Origin: Anaerolineae bacterium
GTDB taxonomy: Bacteria; Chloroflexota; Anaerolineae; Aggregatilineales; UBA3940
DNA length: 61,242 bases
Direction: 5' to 3'
NCBI GenBank assembly: GCA_016928235.1
Contig: JAFGLD010000007.1
Location: 1-61,242, forward strand
The notes under the pieces are model-generated. The model ran no database searches, was not told the DNA's origin, and saw only the letters and a program-made list of their open reading frames with translations. Made by a program: the position numbers and the translations under genes. This document shows, in pieces, positions 26,477 to 47,756 of this stretch (its first letter is position 1; each line of letters starts with the position of its first letter).

Positions 26477-28771
26477 TCAGTCACACAGGTTTTCTCTGAC
26501 ATCGATCTCTAAGCCGGGCCTTTGGCACAACTCCGGTGAAAGCGATGTCAGCCGGTTGCCGTCCAGATATAGAAACCGGAGATGGGTCATCTGGTTTATT
26601 CCTGGGGGCAATGTTGTGAGCTGGTTGCTGGACACATATAGCGTTTCCAGATTGGTCAGCCGGTCAATTTCCGGCGGCAGCCCGGTCAACCGGTTGTCGG
26701 ATAGAGATAGCCTTACGAGGCTGCTCAATTCGCAGATTGAGGGAGGCCAATGATCAAACTGATTGTTGTTTAGGATCAGGTCCTGGAGACCGGTCAACCG
26801 GCCAAACTCCGGCGGCAGCTCAGTGAGCTGATTGCCGGGCATATACAACGCCTTCAGGGAAGTAAGTTGGACGAGCACGGGCGGCAATAACGTGAAATCG
26901 TTGTAGCCCATGTCCAGCCACGAGAGATTGGCCAGCCGGCTGATCTCCGGCGGCAGCTCGGAGAGTTGATTACCAAACAAAGACAACTCTTTGAGATTGG
27001 CCAGTTGACCGATCTCCGGTGGCAGTTCGGTCAGCCGGTTGTTGGAGAGATACAACCTCTGGAGGCTGCTCAATTCGAGGATGGGAGGAGGCAAACGAGT
27101 GAATTGGTTGTCGCTCAGTTTTAGCTCCTGGAGGCCGGCCAACCGGCCAATCTCTGGTGGCAGCTCGGCGAGCTGGTTGCAGGACAGGTATAGTTCCTCC
27201 AGGTTGGTCAGCAAGCCAATCTCCGGTGGCAGCTCGGTGAGCCGGTTGTGGCTCAACTCTAGCCATTGGAGGTTTCCCAGCCGGCCGATCTCCGGCGGCA
27301 GCGTCGAAAGCCGGTTGCCATATAGGCCTAAAGCCTGGAGATCTGTCAGGCGTCCGATCTCCGGGGGCAGCTCGGTGATTTCATTGGTATGCAGGTTGAG
27401 CCGCTGAAGGCCGGTCAACTGCCAGATCTGTGGCGGAAATTCGGCGATCGGGTTGTTGCCCATCTGTAAATCCCGGAGATTGACCAACTTTCCAAAATTC
27501 GGTGGCAGCTTGGAAAGTTGATTATCAGACAGAGACAGATCTTCAAGGTTGGTGAGCTGCCCGAACGACGGCGGCAGCTCCTCGATCAGATTACCGCCTA
27601 GATACAACTCCTGGAGATCTGCCATCTGCCCAATCTCCGGGGGCAATTGTGAAAGCCGGTTATCGAATAGATTGAGTGTCTGGAGGCTGTTCAGGTAAAC
27701 GATCTCCGGTGGTAGTTCTGAAATCTGATTTCCCCTCATCTGCAAATAACGGAGGTGGGTTAACAGGCCGATCTCCGGCGGCAGTTTACCCTGTAGGTTG
27801 TTGCTCTCAAGCTTAAGCTCGATGACCCGATCACAGTAACAGCGGACGCCATACCACGAGCACACCGGTTGATCGCTCAGCCAGTGATCGCTCTGCGTCC
27901 AATGCTCACCATCTGTCGATTGGTACACTGCCGTCAATGCCTGACGCTCCCTGGCGCCGATCCGGCCGGCGTCGCTCAGCCATATCCCCAGCGCCAGTCC
28001 AACAACCACCACACTGCCAAGCGCCTCCAGCCAGGGGTGTCCATGATCCTCGCCTCTTCGCCAGGGGATCAAACTCGCGGCACAGCCGGCCAGGATTGGC
28101 AGGACGGCTGAAACGATGATCGACAGCGGGCCATGCCATCCCCACCGAAGCAGTAAGATGCCCAGGCGGAGCTGAGCCGGTGTCAGTCGAGCCACTGGAC
28201 AGCCCGTGATGAGCGGCAAGATGAGTATGTTCAGCGTCGGCAGCAGCGCCAGCACCAGCGCGCACACCAGGACGATCAACAAGACACCCAACCTCTGTTG
28301 TCCCCATCGAAGCATCAGCACCGTGCCGAGAATCGACGCGGCCAGGTGCAGCCCGGCCAGGCACAGTGCCGTCGACGCGCTGCCCAGGGGGGTATCATCG
28401 ATCAGAATGGGCAGCAGACCAAAGGACAACACCAACATGACGCGCAACAGATAAAGTGTGCTGAGCCCCAATCCCCAGGTTATTTGAGCATCAAGCAGCG
28501 GCGATTGCTTGATGAGTTGAAACCTCTCGGAGCGAAGCCGGCGGGCGGTTGACGCAGCAGCAACAGCCATCGTGACGAGCGGCAGCAGCCACAGCAAGAG
28601 CAGCAGCACAGCGCGGACTTCGGCGGGCGCGCGCCCAATCAGCCAGCCTCGGCTCGCCATCGAGCCGGTAAGCAGCGCGATCAGCAGAACAGTCGTCACC
28701 CGTAACGGGGGCCATCGTCCGGCTCGCAGAGTCTGATCGAGCAGGGGGTTGGAGTAGATTGATTTGGTCAT
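26477..28771 (-). CDS. Membrane protein with 19 leucine-rich repeats
   Basis: A 764-residue protein. Residues about 25-270 hold roughly seven hydrophobic helices. Residues about 278-318 form an LRR N-cap of the plant-like type (YQSTDGEHWTQSDHWLSDQP then CSWYGVRC). From about 318 to 755 run 19 regular 23-residue LRRs of form NLQxLxLxxNxLxxLPPEIG, with a short final half-repeat. The repeats are highly uniform, the SDS22/Ras-like bacterial LRR class. A soluble LRR solenoid on a polytopic anchor suggests recognition or adhesion. No kinase or protease domain is present. No clear ribosome-binding site is seen at the ATG. Confidence 0.88.
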   Translation of the reverse strand: MTKSIYSNPLLDQTLRAGRWPPLRVTTVLLIALLTGSMASRGWLIGRAPAEVRAVLLLLLWLLPLVTMAVAAASTARRLRSERFQLIKQSPLLDAQITWGLGLSTLYLLRVMLVLSFGLLPILIDDTPLGSASTALCLAGLHLAASILGTVLMLRWGQQRLGVLLIVLVCALVLALLPTLNILILPLITGCPVARLTPAQLRLGILLLRWGWHGPLSIIVSAVLPILAGCAASLIPWRRGEDHGHPWLEALGSVVVVGLALGIWLSDAGRIGARERQALTAVYQSTDGEHWTQSDHWLSDQPVCSWYGVRCYCDRVIELKLESNNLQGKLPPEIGLLTHLRYLQMRGNQISELPPEIVYLNSLQTLNLFDNRLSQLPPEIGQMADLQELYLGGNLIEELPPSFGQLTNLEDLSLSDNQLSKLPPNFGKLVNLRDLQMGNNPIAEFPPQIWQLTGLQRLNLHTNEITELPPEIGRLTDLQALGLYGNRLSTLPPEIGRLGNLQWLELSHNRLTELPPEIGLLTNLEELYLSCNQLAELPPEIGRLAGLQELKLSDNQFTRLPPPILELSSLQRLYLSNNRLTELPPEIGQLANLKELSLFGNQLSELPPEISRLANLSWLDMGYNDFTLLPPVLVQLTSLKALYMPGNQLTELPPEFGRLTGLQDLILNNNQFDHWPPSICELSSLVRLSLSDNRLTGLPPEIDRLTNLETLYVSSNQLTTLPPGINQMTHLRFLYLDGNRLTSLSPELCQRPGLEIDVRENLCD

Positions 28772-36996: not shown

Positions 36997-38091
36997 ATGG
37001 GGAAAAGGTTGCTATACCAGGAAATAGTCGAATCGATCTGCCAGGAAATTCGGTACGGCATCCTCAAACCCAATGCCGAGCTGCCGACTGTGCGAGAGAT
37101 GGCCGACAGGTGGTGCTGCGCGCCCGGTACCGTCTTGCATGCTTATCAGGACCTGGCGCAGCAGGGGCTGGTCATCAGTCGCCAGGGCGCGGGGACGCGG
37201 GTGGCGCCACAACCTCCATGCCGATCTCAAAGCCCGCTCCGAAAAGCCACCCTCATGAATCAGGCGGAGTTGTTTTTGTTGAGCGCGCTTACATCCGGAC
37301 ATACGGTGGAAGAGATCGATTGTGCTGTACGCGCCGCGCTGGATCGCTGGCGTACGCTTGTTCAGGAACCCGAAGCCCCTCCCTGCCGGGTACTTCGATT
37401 TGTTGGCAGTCACGATCTGGCCTTGTCTTTGCTGGCCGCCCGCTTGGCCGAGCGAATGCCGGGGCATACACTCCATCTCTCGTTTGTGGGCAGTTTGGGT
37501 GGGCTGATCGCGCTGGCGCGGCGTGAGGCTGATATCGCCGGCGTCCATCTGTGGGATGAAGAGACCAATAGCTACAATCGACCTTTTGTCCGCCGCCTGC
37601 TGCCGGGCCGACGGGTCGCGCTGGTCAACTTGGCTAACCGGCAGATTGGCTTGATCGTCGCGCCGGGGAACCCGCTCGATGTAGCTGCTCTGGCCGATCT
37701 GCCGCGTGGAAATGTTCGCTTTATCAACCGGCAGGCGGGCGCGGGAACGCGCGTCTGGCTCGATGCGCAGTTGTGCCGGATGAACATCGAGGCCGGTAAG
37801 ATCGAGGGTTACGGTGACGAAGCCCTGACGCATTCAGAGGTCGCCGGAGCCATCACCGAGGGTCGCGCCAACGTCGGACTGGGGATCGAAGCCGCCGCTC
37901 TGGCTTATGGGCTTGACTTTGTCCCACTAACTTCCGAGTGCTACGACCTGGTTGTCCCAATCGAGCAGTGGGAGACAGAACCCATGCAGGCACTGGTGGC
38001 CGGCCTGTCTTCCGATGAAACCAAAACTGCCATCAGCCAATTAGGCGGTTACGATACCACCCGCACAGGTAGTGTGGAATGGGTGTCATGA
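36997..38091 (+). CDS. GntR-type HTH regulator with PBP-like ligand domain
   Basis: A 364-residue regulator. The N-terminal winged helix (about residues 5-72) is GntR-like: EIRYGILKPNAELPTVREMA then VLHAYQDLAQQGLV. From about 120 to 355 runs a periplasmic-binding-protein-like domain (RFVGSHDLALSLLAARLAER, INRQAGAGTRVWLDAQL, GRANVGLGIEAAA). This class of PBP domain is found in molybdate-linked proteins such as MoeA-associated and ModE-like regulators, which fits a cluster for a Mo/W enzyme. It overlaps fdhD by 4 bp (ATGA) and is likely the local regulator, sensing an oxyanion or cofactor signal; the ligand is inferred. Confidence 0.85.
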   Translation: MGKRLLYQEIVESICQEIRYGILKPNAELPTVREMADRWCCAPGTVLHAYQDLAQQGLVISRQGAGTRVAPQPPCRSQSPLRKATLMNQAELFLLSALTSGHTVEEIDCAVRAALDRWRTLVQEPEAPPCRVLRFVGSHDLALSLLAARLAERMPGHTLHLSFVGSLGGLIALARREADIAGVHLWDEETNSYNRPFVRRLLPGRRVALVNLANRQIGLIVAPGNPLDVAALADLPRGNVRFINRQAGAGTRVWLDAQLCRMNIEAGKIEGYGDEALTHSEVAGAITEGRANVGLGIEAAALAYGLDFVPLTSECYDLVVPIEQWETEPMQALVAGLSSDETKTAISQLGGYDTTRTGSVEWVS

Positions 38092-38891
38092 CGGATAAGA
38101 TAACGACAAGCCACCTGTATGAGGAACGCGACTTAGTGACGTTTCAAGACGGCCGGAAAAGCAGCAACCGGCAGCCGATTGTCACAGAAATGCCGCTGAC
38201 TATTATCCTGAATGGCGATGAACTGGCTACTTTGGTATGTTCCCCGCACTCGTTTGATTTGTTGGCGATTGGTTTTTTGGTGAGCGAGGGTATCCTGCAA
38301 AGGCATGACGACCTGAAAGCCGTATCGTGCCGGCAGGAACAGGGTGTTGTCTGGGTTGATACCATCGACGGGGTTGTGCCCACTGACGGCTTTTTGCAGA
38401 GGAACTTTACCAGTTGCTGTGGAAAGGGACGACCATCACTGCCTTTTTTGAATGATTATCGGCAAATACAACCCATCACTCATACATCGAGCTTTACGGC
38501 CACAGAACTGTTGGATTTCGTGTCACTGCTCGATAGGGAAGCACAAACCTACAGGCTCACGGGTGGCGTTCACGAAGCAGCTTTGGCGCGCAAAGGTGGT
38601 TTTGTCACCAGCTATGAGGATATCGGCCGCCATAACGCTCTTGACCGCATACTGGGTTACACGTTTTTGAATGACATCGACACGTCTGATAAAGCCGTTG
38701 TATTAAGCGGTCGTATCGCTTCGGAGATGTTGACCAAGGCCGCGCGTATCGGCGTGCCGGTTGTAGTTTCCAGAGCCGCGCCGACGTGTCTGTCGATCGA
38801 CCTGGCCGAGCAGTTGGGGATAACCGTTGTTGGGTTTGCTCGTGGTAGCAGCCTGAATGTTTATACACATCCCGAAAGGGTGATGGAATGA
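38088..38891 (+). CDS. fdhD: Formate dehydrogenase accessory sulfurtransferase FdhD
   Basis: About 267 residues from ATG 38088, overlapping the previous stop (ATGA); ATG 38079 is an alternative. FdhD hallmarks are the N-terminal RQPIVTEMPLTIILNG, the reactive loop NFTSCCGKG (Cys110, Cys111), the GGVHEAAL segment and EDIGRHNALDRILG. FdhD moves sulfur from a cysteine desulfurase to the molybdenum centre of formate dehydrogenase before insertion. Its presence upstream supports assembly of the FdhA protein encoded at 45069-47756. Confidence 0.95.
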   Translation: MTDKITTSHLYEERDLVTFQDGRKSSNRQPIVTEMPLTIILNGDELATLVCSPHSFDLLAIGFLVSEGILQRHDDLKAVSCRQEQGVVWVDTIDGVVPTDGFLQRNFTSCCGKGRPSLPFLNDYRQIQPITHTSSFTATELLDFVSLLDREAQTYRLTGGVHEAALARKGGFVTSYEDIGRHNALDRILGYTFLNDIDTSDKAVVLSGRIASEMLTKAARIGVPVVVSRAAPTCLSIDLAEQLGITVVGFARGSSLNVYTHPERVME

Positions 38892-38972: not shown

Positions 38973-39815
38973 TTGTTTCACGCGCTTGTCAGCATTAAGC
39001 AGGTGCCGGATACAACCAACATTCGGATCGATCCTGAGACCGGCAATCTCATCCGGCAGGGCGTTCCTACTATTCTTAACCCCTATGATGCCCACGCAGT
39101 GGCTTCGGCGGTGGAGTGGAAACGTAAGCTAGGCGGTAAAGTCACCGTCATTTCGATGGGGCCACCTGCCGCGGTATCATCGATTCGTGAATGTATCGAG
39201 ATGGGGGCTGACCGCGGTATCTTGCTCTCGGCTCGCCAGTTTTCGGGGGCCGATACGCTGGCTACGTCTTACGTGCTGGCTTCTACCATCGAAGCCGTCC
39301 ATGCGGAAGACCCTATCGACCTGGTCTTTTTTGGCAAGCAGGCCATCGATGGCGATACCGCGCAGGTGGGTCCCGGTGTGGCATCGCGCCTGAATATGCC
39401 GATGGTCACATACGCGATCGCCATCCGCGAAGTAAACACCGATGAGCGTTACGCCGTCATCGAGCGCAAGACCGAGACCCGCAACGAGAGCATCAAGGCC
39501 AGCTTGCCCGCCGCGCTGACCTGTGAGAAGGATATCGCCGAGATCCCCTTTGCCTCTTTACCTGATCTGATCGCCTCTCTGCGCTACGAGCCGGAAGTCT
39601 GGACGGCGGAAAGTCCGATTGCCTTTGACCCGGCGCAGATCGGGCTGAAAGGCTCGCCGACAACAGTCTTCAAGACCGGTACGCCGGAGAAGCATGTTGC
39701 GGGTGAAGTCGTCAAGACGGTCGATGTTGGCGTCGAAACGGCTGTCAAGATGGTGCTCGACAGGCTGGCCATGATGGCCGATGGGAACACGATCCTGGGG
39801 ATGGTGAGGCAATGA
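38973..39815 (+). CDS. fixA: Electron transfer flavoprotein beta subunit (FixA)
   Basis: A 280-residue protein starting with TTG at 38973, directly after GAGGAGGT. EtfB features are HALVSIKQVPDTTNIRIDP, NPYDAHAVASAVEWK and the GDTAQVGPGVASRLNMPMVT flavin/AMP-binding stretch. The subunit binds FAD together with EtfA. In FixAB-type complexes this FAD splits electrons between a low-potential and a high-potential path. The stop overlaps fixB by 4 bp. It is assigned FixA rather than plain EtfB because FixB, FixC and FixX follow in order. Confidence 0.92.
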   Translation: MFHALVSIKQVPDTTNIRIDPETGNLIRQGVPTILNPYDAHAVASAVEWKRKLGGKVTVISMGPPAAVSSIRECIEMGADRGILLSARQFSGADTLATSYVLASTIEAVHAEDPIDLVFFGKQAIDGDTAQVGPGVASRLNMPMVTYAIAIREVNTDERYAVIERKTETRNESIKASLPAALTCEKDIAEIPFASLPDLIASLRYEPEVWTAESPIAFDPAQIGLKGSPTTVFKTGTPEKHVAGEVVKTVDVGVETAVKMVLDRLAMMADGNTILGMVRQ

Positions 39816-40855
39816 TCAGACGATTCTGGGTATACATCGAACAAGAAGACGGCAAGATCCACCCGGTAGCGTGGGAATTGCTCGGAGTAGCGCGTCGTCT
39901 GGCAACAGAAATCCAGGATGAGCTTGAGCAGACGGGTGACCAGGCCTGCGTCGAGGGGGTTTTGATCGGCGAGAATGTCGAAGGGCTGGCAGCCGAAGTC
40001 TTCCAGTACGGCGCCGATCGGGTCTATGTGGCGGACGCGCCGGTTTTCAAACATTATCTCAACAACATCTACACGACCGCGCTGGTCTCGATGGCGCAGA
40101 AGCACCAGCCGGAAGTCCTTCTGATCGGCGCTACCACGCTGGGACGTGACCTGGCGGGATCGGTGGCGACCACTCTACGCACCGGCCTGACCGCCGACTG
40201 CACGCAGCTGCAAATGGGTGTGGGTCGGGATAGCACCCGCAAATTACTGCTCATGACGCGGCCTGCGTTTGGCGGCAACGTGATCGCTACCATCATCTGC
40301 AAGAACCACCTACCCCAGATGGCAACAGTACGTCCGCGGGTGTTTCCCGCTGCGTTGCCGGAGCCTGGGCGGAAGGGCGAGATCATCCGGGAGACGATTT
40401 CCATTGCCGAAGAAGCAATCAACGCTCAGATTCTGGCGTTCATCCCCAACGACTCGTCCGGGGTCAAGATCGAATATGCCGATGTCATCGTAGCCGGCGG
40501 GCGCGGCGTGGGAGGGTCGGCGGGGTTCGCCTTGCTCAAAGAGCTGGCCGATGAGCTGGGAGGGGTGGTCGGCGCCAGCCGCCCCTGTGTCGATGCCGGC
40601 TGGATATCATACGATCATCAGGTCGGCCAGACCGGCAAGACGGTACGTCCCAAGCTGTACATCGCTGCCGGCATTTCCGGCGCCATCCAGCACAAAGTTG
40701 GGATGCAGGACGCTGATTTCGTTCTGGCAATCAACCGGGATGCCCATGCCCCCATCTTCGAGACGGCTACTGCCGGGATCGTAGGCGATCTTTTCGAAGT
40801 CGTTCCCAACATGATTCAGCAAATCCGGGTGCTTAAAGAGGCCGACAATGACTAG
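39812..40855 (+). CDS. fixB: Electron transfer flavoprotein alpha subunit (FixB)
   Basis: A 347-residue protein. The N-terminal half (EQEDGKIHPVAWELLGVARR, VLLIGATTLGRDLAGSVATT) and the C-terminal FAD-binding domain (ADVIVAGGRGVGG, ASRPCVDAGWISYDHQVGQTG then KTVRPKLYIAAGISGAIQH) are complete. It overlaps fixA by 4 bp and fixC by 8 bp, so fixABC are translationally coupled. With FixA it forms the flavin-bifurcating core that can take electrons from NADH. Confidence 0.94.
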   Translation: MIRRFWVYIEQEDGKIHPVAWELLGVARRLATEIQDELEQTGDQACVEGVLIGENVEGLAAEVFQYGADRVYVADAPVFKHYLNNIYTTALVSMAQKHQPEVLLIGATTLGRDLAGSVATTLRTGLTADCTQLQMGVGRDSTRKLLLMTRPAFGGNVIATIICKNHLPQMATVRPRVFPAALPEPGRKGEIIRETISIAEEAINAQILAFIPNDSSGVKIEYADVIVAGGRGVGGSAGFALLKELADELGGVVGASRPCVDAGWISYDHQVGQTGKTVRPKLYIAAGISGAIQHKVGMQDADFVLAINRDAHAPIFETATAGIVGDLFEVVPNMIQQIRVLKEADND

Positions 40856-42185
40856 CAAGCAAACACAAAACGGTAAAATCCAATTCGATGTGATTGTCGT
40901 CGGGGCCGGGCTGGCAGGCTCGGCGGCCGCCGCGGTGACCGCGCAAGGTGGCCTGAGTGTAGCTCTCATCGAGCGCGGCCAGGCCCCCGGTGCCAAGAAC
41001 TCCTTTGGCGGCGCGCTCTACACCCACTCACTGGAAGAGATCTACCCCGATTTTTGGGATCGGAAACCACCGCTTGAGCGGCCGGTCACCGAGGCCGGCT
41101 TCTGGTTCCTTTCCAAAGACGGCCTGGTTAACATGACCGTCCGCGGTGGAGCGCTTGGCCGCCAACCTGCCGATGCCTATGTGGCGCTGCGTGCTAAGTT
41201 CGATCTGTGGTGGGCCGAGCAAGCCGCCCAGTCAGGCGCTTTCATCATCCCCAAGACGACGGTGACCGACTTCATCCGCGATTCGAGCGGCAAGATCGTA
41301 GGCGTCGACACTGACCGCGCTCAGGGCCGGATTTATGCCCCGGTGGTGATTGTGTGTGAAGGCGTCAACAATCTGCTTACCCTGAAGGCCGGTCTGAGTA
41401 AAAGCGATCTGAAACCCAAAGCTGTGGCGCTGGGAGTCAAACAGCTGATCGCGCTACCGGCAGACACCATCAACGCCCGCTTTGGACTGCCTGATAACTC
41501 ACACGGGCTCGCCGTCACCGTGGCAGGCGATGTATCGATGGGGCTGACCGGCATGGGATTTGTCTACACAGGCAACGACTGTGTCTCGATCGGTCTGGGG
41601 GTCACCCTGGAAGAGTTGGCGAAGGCAAAGATACGACCGTATGCGCTCTTGCAGCGCTATCTCAACCACCCTGCGATTGCGCCGCTGGTTGCCGGCGGTC
41701 GGTTGATGGAGTATGGCGCTCACCTGATCCCCGAAGGCGGCTGGAATGACATGCCCAAGCTATATACTGATGGCGTGATGGTAGCCGGCGATGCTGCCAC
41801 GATGGTTAATGCCCTGCACTGGGAAGGTACCAACATGGCCATCATCGCCGGTAAAGAGGCCGCCGAGACTGCCATCAAGGCCCACCGGCGCCAGGACTTC
41901 TCAGGTAAGTCTCTCTCGGAGTATCGAGAGCGGCTGAGCAAACGGTTTATCCTCAAGGACCTGCGCCAGTATCGCAATTTGTCCCGGTTCCTGGAAAACC
42001 ACCCGACCTTTATGGATGTCTATCCCAACTTTCTAAACGATGCCCTGGGGATGTTCTTTACCGGGTACGGCAAAACTAAGAAAGACTTGTATGGGGATAT
42101 TGTACGCTCGCTGACCCGTCGCAGGCCCTTGATCAAGGTGGTTGGTGATATGCTCGCCTTTGGTAAGGCGGTTATGGGTATTTAG
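40848..42185 (+). CDS. fixC: FixC-type flavoprotein dehydrogenase
   Basis: A 445-residue FAD protein related to ETF-quinone oxidoreductase but without its own iron-sulfur domain, as in FixC. The N-terminal dinucleotide fold FDVIVVGAGLAGSAAA is followed by LIERGQAPGAKNSFGGALYT. A C-terminal FAD segment reads TDGVMVAGDAATMVNALHWE then GTNMAIIAGKEAAETA. The missing cluster is supplied by FixX, encoded 28 bp downstream. FixCX passes the high-potential electron of the FixAB flavin to quinone. The start overlaps fixB by 8 bp. Confidence 0.94.
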   Translation: MTSKQTQNGKIQFDVIVVGAGLAGSAAAAVTAQGGLSVALIERGQAPGAKNSFGGALYTHSLEEIYPDFWDRKPPLERPVTEAGFWFLSKDGLVNMTVRGGALGRQPADAYVALRAKFDLWWAEQAAQSGAFIIPKTTVTDFIRDSSGKIVGVDTDRAQGRIYAPVVIVCEGVNNLLTLKAGLSKSDLKPKAVALGVKQLIALPADTINARFGLPDNSHGLAVTVAGDVSMGLTGMGFVYTGNDCVSIGLGVTLEELAKAKIRPYALLQRYLNHPAIAPLVAGGRLMEYGAHLIPEGGWNDMPKLYTDGVMVAGDAATMVNALHWEGTNMAIIAGKEAAETAIKAHRRQDFSGKSLSEYRERLSKRFILKDLRQYRNLSRFLENHPTFMDVYPNFLNDALGMFFTGYGKTKKDLYGDIVRSLTRRRPLIKVVGDMLAFGKAVMGI

Positions 42186-42213
42186 GTTCGTGTGAAAGGT
42201 AAGAGGTAAATCC

Positions 42214-42546
42214 ATGAGCACAAAAAGTGATGAAGTGGTTGGAACTCAGGGAAAAGAGGATCTGCCGGAAGTCTATGTTGACGATCTGTTGATGTCGATC
42301 AAGTATTTCACCGATGAGAACGAAGTCCATTTGCAACTCATCGATCCGGAGACTTGTGTTGCGTGTGACAAGCCCTGTGTATCCTTTTGTCCGGTAGGAG
42401 CCTATCAGGTGCAGGAGGATGGACATGTGACCATCGCCTTCCAAAGCTGTATCGAGTGCGGGAGCTGCCGTGTGATGTGCCCGCATAATAATATCGAGTG
42501 GAAGTATCCACGCGGCGGTTTTGGGGTGTCTTACAAATTCGGATAG
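42214..42546 (+). CDS. fixX: FixX ferredoxin-like protein
   Basis: A 110-residue protein. Two Cys groups lie at about residues 46-58 (TCVACDKPCVSFCPVGAY) and 78-88 (CIECGSCRVMCPHNNIEW), giving ferredoxin-like clusters, with the FixX ending KYPRGGFGVSYKFG. It supplies the iron-sulfur centre lacking in FixC. It is preceded by AGAGGTAAAT. A GC-rich hairpin (42566-42591) follows. Confidence 0.93.
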   Translation: MSTKSDEVVGTQGKEDLPEVYVDDLLMSIKYFTDENEVHLQLIDPETCVACDKPCVSFCPVGAYQVQEDGHVTIAFQSCIECGSCRVMCPHNNIEWKYPRGGFGVSYKFG

Positions 42547-42632: not shown

Positions 42633-43229
42633 ATGCTGAACCAGCCCAACATCCGGCAGATGGACACCATCTGCCGGTATACCGTCGATGAGTACATCGA
42701 CATGCTCATCCAATTCCACGGCAACTTTGCCCCAGGCCTCCTGATCGGTGGTTTCATGGTCGATGCTGCCGTACAACAGATGACCCCCTATGAATTTTTC
42801 GATGCCATCTGCGAATCGACCTCATGCCTTCCCGATGCTATCCAGATGCTCACCCCGTGCACTGTCGGTAACGGCTGGCTCAAGATCGTCAATACGGGCC
42901 GATTTGCCATTGCTCTGTACGAGAAACGAAGCGGAGACGGCGTCCGCGTCAGTATGGATGTATCGAAGCTAGACCAGTGCCCGGAAATCAGAAACTGGTT
43001 TATGCGTCTCATATCCAAGCATGATCAAGATAAAAATGCGCTGCTGAGCGAGATCAAGACGGCGGGGCGGGATATCCTCTCGATCCGACCTGTTAAGATT
43101 TCATCGAAGCTACTCGGCAAGCGCCCCAGAGATCCGATTGCCTTGTGCGAGTCATGCGGCGAAGCATTTCCAACCAACGGCAGCGTGCTGTGCCCGGCCT
43201 GTAAGGGAGTGGATTTATTTGAGATTTGA
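42633..43229 (+). CDS. FmdE-like protein with C-terminal zinc ribbon
   Basis: A 198-residue protein resembling FmdE, first known beside formylmethanofuran dehydrogenase and often found near formate dehydrogenase genes. The core is seen in STSCLPDAIQMLTPCTVGNG (about residues 68-87) and RFAIALYEKRSGDGVRVSMD. A C-terminal zinc ribbon is CESCGEAF...CPACKG. The usual N-terminal HGHxCPG is replaced by HGNFAPG (about residues 29-35), so the metal or thiol site there is probably lost. It is an assembly or redox accessory protein by context; its real function is unknown. Confidence 0.8.
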   Translation: MLNQPNIRQMDTICRYTVDEYIDMLIQFHGNFAPGLLIGGFMVDAAVQQMTPYEFFDAICESTSCLPDAIQMLTPCTVGNGWLKIVNTGRFAIALYEKRSGDGVRVSMDVSKLDQCPEIRNWFMRLISKHDQDKNALLSEIKTAGRDILSIRPVKISSKLLGKRPRDPIALCESCGEAFPTNGSVLCPACKGVDLFEI

Positions 43230-43339: not shown

Positions 43340-45058
43340 ATGAGAGAAGGAAACCAAGAGAACGTCGAGAGCATCATCGAGAAATACCCAAAAAAGGAAT
43401 CGGCTGCCCTGCCTGTCATGCAGTTGATCCAGGAAGAAAATGGGAACCAATTGGATGCCGCCGGTGTGGAGGAAGCTGCCAGGGCGCTCGGTATGAGCAA
43501 GAGCCGCATCTACGGCATCGCCACCTACTACACAATGTTCAATACCCGGCCAGTGGGAAAATATCACCTCCAGGTAGATACCTGTGTCCCTGGTTTTCTT
43601 CATGGGGCGGATGAGATCGTCAAGCATCTCGAGCAGACACTCGGCATTTCCGTCGGTGAAACAACAGCAGATGATCTGTTTACCCTGTCTACCGTGCAAG
43701 ATCTGGCCTCTTGCGCCACAGGCCCGGTCATCCAGGTCAACGACCGATATTTTGAGAACATGACCATCGAAAAGACCGACGAGCTTATCGAGGCGCTGAG
43801 GCAGGGGAAAGAGCCCGACAATGACACGTCGATGACCGTTGTGTCTGAGTGTGGGATACTGCTTAATGATCGAACTCAGGCTGACTGCCGCACACTCGAT
43901 TTCTACAAACGGAACGGCGGCTACCAGGCGCTGGCAAAAGCCCTATCAATGCAGCCGGCGGATATCGTGAATGAAGTGAAAGACGCACAAATTCGAGGCC
44001 GCGGCGGTGCGGGATTCCCGGCTGGGGCAAAGTGGTCATTCCTTCCCAAAGACGATCCCCGGCCTGTCTACTTGATCTGTAATGCCGATGAAGGTGAGCC
44101 GGGCACTTTCAAAGACAGGCAGATCATGGAATTCAACCCGCATCTGGTCATCGAAGGCATTGCCATTAGTGCTTATGCCATTGGCGCGGCTCAGGCCTTC
44201 ATCTACATCCGCGGTGAGTTCACCTGGATCGCCGACATCCTCGAAGCGGCCATCGAAGCGGCTAAGGCGGATGGTCAGCTCGACCACGTGGACATCATCG
44301 TCCACCGGGGGGCCGGATCTTATGTTTGCGGTGAAGAGACCGCCCTGATCGAATCAATCGAGGGCAAACGAGGCAATCCAAGATCGAAACCACCCTTTCC
44401 TGCTAACATCGGACTGTACGGATGCCCGACCGTCGTCAACAATGTCGAGACGCTGGCCAGTGTGCCCTACATCGTCCGGCACGGTGCCGAAACCTTCAAG
44501 CAGATCGGTATCCCCAACAATTACGGACCCAAGATATTTGGCGTGTCGGGTCATGTGAACACGCCCGGTGTCTTCGAGTATCCGCTCGGCACGCCGCTCA
44601 AGACCATCCTTGATGCCGCGGGGGGAGTCAAGGGAAAAATGAAGGGAGTGATCGTCGGCGGGTTGTCCGTGCCGATCCTTACGGCCGCGGAAGCCGAAGG
44701 TCTGTCCCTCGATTATGACTCATGCCAGAAAGCGGGGACGTCGCTGGGATCGGGAGGCATCATCGTGGTCAACGACAGCGTGTCGATCCCGGAGCTCGCG
44801 CTGAGAACGATCGAGTTCTACCATCATGAATCATGCGGCCAGTGTGTGCCATGCCGGGAAGGCTCTCTCGTCGTCGAGAGCAAGCTCCGCGCGCTGGTCG
44901 AAGGGAGAGGGACACGCGAGGATATCGACTTAGTCCTTCAGTTGTGCGGAACCATCCGAGGACTTACGCTATGCCCTACCGGCGAGGCATTTTCGATGCC
45001 GATACAAGCAATGGTCACCAAGTTCAGACCGGAATTCGAAGCACTCATCCAACAATAG
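43340..45058 (+). CDS. NuoE-NuoF fusion, formate dehydrogenase beta subunit
   Basis: A 572-residue fusion. Residues about 1-155 are a NuoE (24-kDa) thioredoxin-fold domain, about 165-572 a NuoF (51-kDa) domain. NuoF is intact: RGRGGAGFPAGAKWSF for NADH, NADEGEPGTFKDRQIME for FMN, YVCGEETALIESIEGKRGNP, and the [4Fe-4S] ligands ESCGQCVPCREG plus TLCPTGEA. In NuoE the pattern C-x4-C reads CVPGFL and C-x3-C reads DLASC, so two of four [2Fe-2S] ligands are gone. The protein is the NAD(H)-reactive subunit. It lies 10 bp before fdhA and has GGAGGTG at its start. Confidence 0.92.
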   Translation: MREGNQENVESIIEKYPKKESAALPVMQLIQEENGNQLDAAGVEEAARALGMSKSRIYGIATYYTMFNTRPVGKYHLQVDTCVPGFLHGADEIVKHLEQTLGISVGETTADDLFTLSTVQDLASCATGPVIQVNDRYFENMTIEKTDELIEALRQGKEPDNDTSMTVVSECGILLNDRTQADCRTLDFYKRNGGYQALAKALSMQPADIVNEVKDAQIRGRGGAGFPAGAKWSFLPKDDPRPVYLICNADEGEPGTFKDRQIMEFNPHLVIEGIAISAYAIGAAQAFIYIRGEFTWIADILEAAIEAAKADGQLDHVDIIVHRGAGSYVCGEETALIESIEGKRGNPRSKPPFPANIGLYGCPTVVNNVETLASVPYIVRHGAETFKQIGIPNNYGPKIFGVSGHVNTPGVFEYPLGTPLKTILDAAGGVKGKMKGVIVGGLSVPILTAAEAEGLSLDYDSCQKAGTSLGSGGIIVVNDSVSIPELALRTIEFYHHESCGQCVPCREGSLVVESKLRALVEGRGTREDIDLVLQLCGTIRGLTLCPTGEAFSMPIQAMVTKFRPEFEALIQQ

Positions 45059-45068
45059 GGGAAAAGCT

Positions 45069-47756
45069 ATGAAAAAAACGATTTTTATTGATGGGATGGC
45101 GGTGGCCTTCGACGGGGAAAAGACCGTGCTCCAGATTGCCAGGGAAAACGGTATTTACATCCCCACTCTGTGCTATCACCCAAAGCTCGGACCGGCCGGC
45201 ATGTGCCGCGTCTGCGTGGTGGAAGTTGATGGGATGCGCGCGCTTCAAACATCATGCTCTTTGATGGCAACAGATGGGATGCGCATCCAAACGGCTTCTC
45301 CGGGGGTAATCGAAGCCCGCAAGATGGTGGTCAACCTGCTGCTGGCCAACGGGAACCATGACTGCCTCTCCTGCGAGGTCAACGGTGACTGTGAGCTTCA
45401 GGATGCGGCCTACCACCTGGGTATTGAAAGGCCTGCTTTCCTGGTCGAAGAGCAGGCGGAAAGAGACACATCAGCTGCCTTTATCATGCGCGACCCCAAC
45501 AAGTGTATCCTGTGCGGCCGGTGCATTGAGGGCTGCAACCGCATGGTCGTCAACGAGGTGCTCGATTTCGGTCTCAGGGGCGGGCACACGAAGGTGATCT
45601 GTGACGCGGATGTCCCGATGGGCCAATCGACCTGTGTCCAGTGCGGCGAGTGCGTCCAGCTCTGCCCGGTGGGCGCGCTGATCGACAAGAAGGGGATCGG
45701 CCAGGCCCGCGCCTGGGAAGTCGAGAAGGTCAGGACGACCTGCCCTTACTGCGGTGTCGGCTGCCAGCTTGAGCTGCACGTCAAGGGTGACCAGATTATC
45801 CGTGTCACGGGCATCGATGGGGCCCAGCCCAACCAGGGCCACCTGTGTGTCAAGGGGCGCTACGGCTACGACTTCATCTATTCGGATGACCGGCTCACCA
45901 CGCCGCTGATCCGGGAGGCCGATGGCTTCCGCGAGGCGACCTGGGATGAGGCGCTTGACCTGGTTGCCGACAAGTTCAGCCAGATCATCGCCGAGTCCGG
46001 ACCCGATGCCATCGCCGGCGTCAGCTGCGCCAGAAGCACCAACGAAGACTCGTACAACATGCAGAAACTGATGAGGGGGGTAATCGGCACAAACAACATC
46101 GACCATTGTGCCCGTACCTGACACGCTCCCACTGTTGCCGGTCTGGCAACCTCATTTGGGTCAGGCGCAATGACAAACTCGTTCAGCGAATTTGAAAAAG
46201 CTAAACTCTTCTTCCTGATCGGTACCAACATGACCGAGGCTCATCCCGTGGCGTCCTATTTTGTCAAGCGCGCCGTTTTGAAGGGGGCCACGCTCATCGT
46301 TGCCGATCCCAGAAAGCATGCACTTGCCAGGAAGGCCGATATCTTTGCCCAGCTCAAGGTTGGCTCGGATGTCGCTTTCCTCAATGGCATCATGTATGTA
46401 CTGATTACCGAAGACCTGTATGACAAAGCATTTGTCGAGGCCAACTGTGTCGACTTCGATGACCTGAAAGCGAAGGTCATGGAGTATCCTCCTGAGAGAG
46501 CGTCGGAGATCTCCGGTGTCCCGGTCGAGACCATCCGGGAGATCGCCCGTACCATGGCTTCGATCAAGCCGGGGATGCTCTGCTACACACTTGGCATCAC
46601 GGAACACACCTGCGGCAAGAACAACGTGATGTCGGTCGCCAATCTCCAGATGCTGCTTGGCAACATGGGAGTGGAAAGTGGCGGTGTGAACCCGCTGCGC
46701 GGTCAGAACAACGTCCAGGGCGCCTGCGATATGGGCGCTCTGCCCGGAACCTATCCCGGCTACCAGAGTGTCACCAATCCGGAGAGCAATGCCAAGTTTG
46801 CCGAGGCCTGGGGCGTCGACAGCCTGCCCGACAAGTTTGGATTGATGATACCGGACATGATGGCCGGTCTGGCGACGGGAAAAGTCAGAGGGTTCTACAT
46901 CTTCGGCGAGAACCTGGCCAACTCGGAGCCGAACATCGCTCACGTCGAACATGAGTTGGCTTCCGCCGAGTTCATCGTCTGCAATGACATCTTCCCGACC
47001 GAGACCACCCGATTTGCCCATGTCATTCTTCCATCAGCGGCCTGGTGCGAAGATGATGGGACATATACCAACAGCGAGCGCCGGGTCAACCGCGTGCGCA
47101 AGATCAAGGACGCCCCCGGCCAGGCTAAGCCGAACTGGTGGATCTTCAAAGAGATTGCCAGGCGGATGGGCCAGGAGTGGCCATCGAATAGTCCGCAGGA
47201 GATCTGGGACAACGAGGTATCGATGCTCGTTCCGGCCTATGCCGGGATCAAGTATGCACGCATCGAGCAGGATGGGCTGCAATGGCCCTGCCCAAGCATC
47301 GACCACCCCGGGACAAAGTTCCTCCATAAGGACGGGAAGTTCGCGCGAGGCCAGGGACTGTTCAAGGGGATCGAGTGGACGCCTCCGGCGGAGGTCGAGG
47401 ATGAGGAATATCCATTTGTCCTCAGCACCGGGCGGCGGCTGTTTCACTATCACACGAGGACGCAAACCATGAGAGCCGGTCTCGACCAGATACTTCCGGA
47501 GGAGACGGCGGACATCTCACCCGTCGACGCGACCCGGCTGGACATCGCCGACAGCGAAACCATCAAGGTCAGCTCACGCCGCGGATCGGTAAAGGTCAAG
47601 GCCAGAGTAACCGATCAGATCCCCGCGGGATTGGTGTGGATGGCCTTCCACTTCCGTGACGGCAACGCCAACTGGCTGACCAACAATGTGTTCGACCCCG
47701 ACACCAAGACGGCAGAATACAAAGCCTGTGCCGTCAAGATCGAGAAGATTGTATAA
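45069..47756 (+). CDS. fdhA: Selenocysteine formate dehydrogenase catalytic subunit
   Basis: An 895-residue protein read through the in-frame TGA at 46119-46121 (selenocysteine 351). Domain order: [2Fe-2S] domain with Cys35, Cys46, Cys49 and Cys63; His/Cys cluster HDCLSCEVNGDC; two [4Fe-4S] sets CILCGRCIEGC and CVQCGECVQLCP; Mo/W-bis-MGD domain with CPYCGVGC. The active site reads DHCART-U-HAPTVAGLATSFG, the FdhF pattern. Conserved C-terminal parts include GGVNPLRGQNNVQGACDMGA and NAFVCND-like DIFPTETTRFA, and the MopB C-terminal barrel. It should oxidise formate or reduce CO2, exchanging electrons with the NuoEF protein 10 bp upstream. Confidence 0.96.
46119..46150 (+). promoter_or_regulatory. 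Bacterial SECIS element at the fdhA UGA
   Basis: After TGA come 12 bases, then a perfect 6-bp stem GTTGCC/GGCAAC with the loop GGTCT (46134-46150). The 12-base offset and the GGUCU loop match the E. coli fdhF element recognised by SelB. Confidence 0.93.

Follow-up and report, generated by a model that had tools for sequence, protein, structure and literature searches.

The role of the N1a cluster, the [2Fe-2S] centre associated with the NuoE domain, is unsettled, with proposals that it limits the production of reactive oxygen species, that it gates the release of NAD+, that it serves stability only or, in the form of the C1 cluster of HydC, that it takes part in electron bifurcation. A gene within a 61,242-nucleotide stretch of DNA from an Anaerolineae bacterium (the whole of which is referred to here as the window) brings this question into focus, as it encodes a fused NuoE-NuoF subunit in which the NuoE ligands to the cluster appear to have been replaced. 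Is the cluster indeed gone, has another centre taken its place, and what does the change imply for the enzyme and for the FixABCX complex which is encoded just upstream?

Ligand positions in the fused subunit

The features of the gene, from the ORF list, Pfam, NCBIfam and comparison with known NuoE and NuoF sequences, are as follows.

43340..45058, + strand: diaphorase subunit of a formate dehydrogenase, a NuoE-NuoF fusion of 572 aa (ORF list, Pfam, NCBIfam, NuoF comparison)
43340..43834, + strand: NuoE (24-kDa, thioredoxin-like) domain, three of the four [2Fe-2S] ligands replaced (Pfam PF01257, 146 bits, with ligand comparison)
43577..43579, + strand: Asp80 codon, ligand position 1 (Cys in 75/75 other NuoE domains)
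43583..43585, + strand: Cys82 codon, out of register (17/17 main-subclade members have Cys here, the sister subclade Asn)
43592..43594, + strand: Gly85 codon, ligand position 2 (Gly or Ala across the clade)
43700..43702, + strand: Asp121 codon, ligand position 3
43712..43714, + strand: Cys125 codon, ligand position 4, the sole canonical ligand retained
43835..45058, + strand: NuoF domain, which retains the N3-type [4Fe-4S] ligands as well as the motifs for FMN and NAD and has no additional C-terminal ferredoxin domain (Pfam)

The NuoE domain occupies residues 10-153 of the fusion, where the Pfam score stands against a cut-off of 24.8 bits, and it matches human NDUFV2 at 1.9e-39. The segments VDTCVPGFLHGAD and VQDLASCATGPVIQVND, to which the sequence-only reading of this locus had drawn attention, are present in ORF 43340-45058. 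When the domain is set against NDUFV2 in an ungapped alignment, HVQVCTTTPCMLRN pairs with HLQVDTCVPGFLHG and VECLGAC pairs with VQDLASC, the flanking motifs GKYHxQV and GETTxDxLFTL being in register. In other words, where the family has the four cysteines of C-x4-C and C-x3-C, this domain has Asp80, Gly85, Asp121 and Cys125. The sequence-only reading had put the loss at two ligands of four, with the cysteine of the first pair taken as ligand 1. That residue is Cys82, which lies out of register, two residues downstream of ligand 1, and has Asn as its counterpart in the sister group of sequences; three ligands are therefore gone rather than two. The loss itself was thus correctly recognised and, if anything, understated. 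Its corollary, that the 24-kDa cluster is missing, now has clearer support than was originally claimed, and, judged from the ligands alone, the cluster is very probably absent from the protein. There is a warning here for annotation, in that both Pfam and NCBIfam label this putatively cluster-less domain a [2Fe-2S] ferredoxin.

The NuoF half of the subunit is conventional in its motifs, retaining that for the [4Fe-4S] cluster (ESCGQCVPCREG...LC) along with those for FMN and NAD. Its nearest matches are the NuoF of complex I (4e-119) and then the bifurcating HydB (4e-99). Pfam finds no Fe-S domain beyond the expected ones in the NuoE-NuoF subunit, the NuoF part consisting of Nuo51, SLBB and NADH_4Fe-4S only. 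An AlphaFold model of the subunit, built from 18 sequences, is of moderate quality (pLDDT 75); its best Foldseek match is the fused HoxF (5xfa/5xf9), and the VIA-align comparison of the model covered residues 160-572, that is, the NuoF part only.

Conservation and descent of the replaced residues

Whether these replacements belong to a lineage or to a single genome was addressed by scanning 84,980 named genomes for two peptide patterns, YYTMFNT and DRYFENM, neither of which touches the ligands. The scan returned 16 orthologs, whose NuoE domains are 54-81% identical to that of the query, together with two distant four-Cys homologs, and whole-genome searches added three further members of the clade (G337, G868 and G1297). 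With the query included, all 20 distinct clade members carry D-(G/A)-D-C at the ligand columns. The combination occurs in 0 of 75 NuoE domains from outside the clade, which were drawn from Chloroflexota, Spirochaetota, the phylum of locus L051 and other groups; every one of these reads C-C-C-C. Asp80 and Asp121 are each present in 20/20 of the clade and in 0/73 four-Cys domains, and Cys125 is likewise found in 20/20.

The clade forms a single branch of the tree (support 100/99), and when the ligand columns are left out, a quick tree still accounts for the loss by a single change (SH-aLRT 93). Its reading frames are full-length, at about 572 aa, with the NuoF motifs kept. Among clade members dN is 0.12-0.27 against a dS of 1.2 or more, with synonymous sites near saturation, and both GAT and GAC are used for the Asp residues at the ligand columns. 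Since these codons vary synonymously and dN lies far below dS, the residues are held by selection. The replacement of ligands 1-3 by Asp, Gly/Ala and Asp thus goes back to a single event in the clade's ancestor, since when selection has maintained the two Asp residues.

These data also bear on the most mundane explanation of the locus, namely that the ligand change is a sequencing or assembly error or that the gene is a decaying pseudogene. The one point in its favour is that the assembly behind the window is a draft, in 372 contigs. Against this, the same residues recur in 20 genomes with different codons, which excludes an error at the ligand codons, the eventuality that the sequence-only reading had named as fatal to its claim; moreover, the frames are open and under strong purifying selection. 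The explanation is accordingly rejected on the orthologs, its probability being close to nil.

The members come from Chloroflexota, Spirochaetota, deltaproteobacterial lineages and Krumholzibacteria, and Chloroflexota are intermixed with Spirochaetota in the tree, which points to a probable transfer of the gene between phyla. The binning of metagenome-assembled genomes is a caveat to this, although several of the loci lie on contigs of more than 100 kb.

A second potential objection was that nearby Cys or His residues stand in for the missing ligands. The alignment offers no such stand-in, Cys or His, that all 20 clade members share. His88 was considered and rejected, since one member has Gln at this position and the sister subclade has Met or Ala; His76 was rejected as well, being common also in four-Cys domains.

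This does not mean that the pocket is plainly empty: two Asp residues and Cys125 are invariant, and an extra Cys lies near by in each subclade. The site may then have been rebuilt, either as an Asp/Cys-ligated [2Fe-2S] cluster or as a single-metal centre, with Asp80, Asp121, Cys125 and one of Cys82 or Cys128 as ligands. Such a reading is encouraged by the invariance of the first three residues and by the presence in each subclade of exactly one extra local cysteine (Cys82 in 17/17 or Cys128 in 3/3), which is absent from the 73 four-Cys domains. The second cysteine is, however, placed differently in the two subclades, such that there is no clade-wide set of four ligands. Furthermore, ligand position 2 is Gly or Ala, and with only two subclades, one of them having three members, the exchange of cysteines may be due to chance. 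A rebuilt site is, on balance, unlikely; an Asp2Cys2 site would be a centre not described for the NuoE/HydC/FdsG family, one that would tune or sense the FMN of a formate dehydrogenase.

In the sister subclade (L051 10001-11455, L052 10001-11695 and L087), where Cys82 is missing, the new Cys128 gives the former ligand-4 loop a C-x-x-C motif (CGTC). Beside the Krumholzibacteriia member of the clade, at L052 6208-9863, inspection by eye shows divergently oriented HdrA-like and HdrB/C-like (heterodisulfide reductase) genes.

Gene neighbourhood and the proposed electron route

The genes around the fusion in the window are as follows.

38079..38891, + strand: fdhD, formate dehydrogenase accessory sulfurtransferase
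38973..42546, + strand: fixA, fixB, fixC and fixX (EtfABCX-type complex), adjoining the gene only in the window genome
42565..42592, + strand: terminator-like hairpin between fixX and fmdE (z -1.95, weak evidence)
42633..43229, + strand: FmdE-domain zinc-finger protein (Pfam PF02663), the upstream neighbour in 10/18 clade loci, perhaps with a part in maturation or regulation
45069..47756, + strand: FdhA, NuoG-like Fe-S head and molybdopterin formate dehydrogenase domain (TIGR01591, 827 bits against a cut-off of 666)
46119-46121, + strand: putative selenocysteine TGA of FdhA, in frame at the active-site position DHCART-U-HAPT

The partner of the fusion is FdhA, which is found with an in-frame TGA 3' of NuoEF at every readable junction, these being 12 loci of other genomes, that of G337 and the window. 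As the genome of the window encodes both tRNA-Sec and SelB, each above its curated cut-off, the TGA is most likely read as selenocysteine; a standard ORF list shows FdhA as two ORFs at this codon. A His ligand in FdhA that was suspected to be odd proved ordinary, the same H-x-C spacing occurring in HoxU of C. necator. Taken together, the formate dehydrogenase alpha domain, the predicted active-site Sec and the NuoF-type FMN/NAD domain with its [4Fe-4S] ligands are the marks of the NAD-linked, metal-dependent class of formate dehydrogenases.

Several other features accompany these genes. The gene at 36997-38091, which overlaps fdhD, encodes a GntR-type regulator with a fused PBP-like domain akin to proteins of molybdopterin biosynthesis; this regulator is a candidate molybdate or cofactor sensor for the gene cluster. 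Further away, at 26477-28771 on the - strand, lies a gene for a long leucine-rich-repeat protein with N-terminal membrane segments, as judged by eye. The same genome has a second NuoE-NuoF fusion on another contig (C107; L037 1-15558), with all four Cys ligands, beside two further FdhA genes. In G337 (L035 420-10451) the cluster-less type of formate dehydrogenase directly adjoins a second NuoEF-FdhA set, the NuoE part of which shows four Cys (CTGPVC and CAGRC).

The sequence-only reading placed the cluster loss in the same operon as FixABCX, and it envisaged that the two might go together. The fix genes are indeed on the same strand and just upstream, but they need not be transcribed together with fmdE and the fusion: a GC-rich hairpin of 10 pairs with a T-rich tail lies between fixX and fmdE, weak as this evidence is (such sites are no commoner in the region than in shuffles). 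Across the clade the association fails. No fix gene was found next to any other clade member, among them 13 whose loci extend 5 kb or more upstream, and a FixC-like protein is absent at E 1e-20 from 13 of 18 genomes, the five with FixC including the window's own. The nearest ortholog (81%) has the arrangement fdhD-fmdE-nuoEF with no fix genes between, the fixCX-like genes of that genome (L038) sitting on another contig. FixABCX is a separate and incidental neighbour in one genome.

It is in this context that the idea of bifurcation must be judged, according to which the enzyme still bifurcates or confurcates with ferredoxin, its branching altered by the cluster loss and FixABCX acting as its partner. 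The proximity of FixABCX in the window genome invites the idea, as does the proposal, made from domain annotation, that heterodimeric Chloroflexi FdhAB of similar domain make-up are bifurcating (PMC5736913). The known Bfu enzymes, which comprise HydABC, NfnABC and HylCBA-FdhA, resemble the present enzyme in having NuoE- and NuoF-like modules around an FMN. They have six conserved Fe-S clusters in BfuBC, among them the HydC-type C1, and the family needs both this cluster and the extra clusters of BfuB (PMC9304861); a central role in bifurcation has been proposed for the C1 of HydABC-type enzymes (PMC9304861; PMC9499530). Here, by contrast, the C1 ligands are lost from the NuoE/HydC part in 20/20 members, and Pfam finds in the NuoF/HydB part neither the extra N-terminal [2Fe-2S] nor the C-terminal ferredoxin domains. 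In addition, NuoF is closer to that of complex I than to HydB, and the fix genes, as seen above, do not accompany other members. Bifurcation is therefore very improbable, and for the D-(G/A)-D-C clade a list of domains is not by itself a safe basis for predicting it. The suggestion that electron branching is changed by the loss fares no better, given that in MeFDH1 the equivalent cluster is outside the electron path (PMC10869683) and that the present enzyme lacks bifurcation hardware by the published definitions (PMC9304861, PMC7311640).

The reading that we prefer, and in which we have good confidence, is that FdhA and the NuoE-NuoF fusion form a soluble, NAD-linked, Sec-containing and non-bifurcating formate dehydrogenase in which NuoE is a cluster-free scaffold. 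By homology, electrons would pass from the Mo/W site through the Fe-S clusters of FdhA to the [4Fe-4S] cluster of NuoF, and thence via FMN to NAD+, with no coupling to ferredoxin. NuoE would retain its fold and still sit next to the FMN, but without the off-path [2Fe-2S] cluster (the N1a equivalent, known as G7 in RcFDH and B2 in MeFDH1), and would now serve as a structural part of the diaphorase. In MeFDH1, B2 lies more than 15 Å away and off the electron path (PMC10869683), and, because the equivalent cluster is off the path in solved relatives, transfer from formate to NAD+ should remain intact. It is also on record that complex I variants in which N1a is irreducible by NADH show unchanged production of reactive oxygen (PMC3898324). 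What speaks against the scaffold is that both Asp residues are conserved more strongly than a mere scaffold would need.

Comparison with known systems

In the open-access literature no published N1a-less formate dehydrogenase was found, which is not proof of absence. Among characterised enzymes, the FdsABGD formate dehydrogenases of Rhodobacter capsulatus and C. necator are likewise NAD-linked, metal-containing and made up of NuoE-, NuoF- and NuoG-like modules. Their NuoE-like FdsG is, however, a separate subunit, and it binds the N1a-equivalent cluster, as seen in RcFDH (PMC7171172).

Closer in architecture is formate dehydrogenase 1 of Methylobacterium extorquens (MeFDH1), a heterodimer in which FdhA is paired with a beta subunit that is a NuoE-NuoF-like fusion; it is the best solved match to the FdhA of the window. 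There are three differences. The beta subunit of MeFDH1 keeps its [2Fe-2S] cluster B2 (PMC10869683); its FdhA is without one cluster whose Cys ligands are present in the window FdhA; and it has Cys at the metal where the window FdhA has the predicted Sec.

The nearest parallel for the loss itself is HoxF of the NAD-reducing [NiFe]-hydrogenases, which is also a NuoE-NuoF fusion without N1a (PMC3189943) and belongs to NAD-linked enzymes that do not react with ferredoxin (PMC11647496). Its partner is a hydrogenase, whereas here the downstream gene is FdhA and there are no HoxUYH partner genes. Moreover, HoxF of C. necator aligns as C-A-C-S at the ligand columns, against D-G-D-C here, and HoxF stands far from the clade in the tree, on a long branch. 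Given these different residues and this distant position, the two lineages probably lost N1a independently. A formate dehydrogenase lineage in which the loss is fixed, the domain is kept and two cysteines have become invariant Asp residues thus provides, beside HoxF, a natural experiment on the role of N1a.
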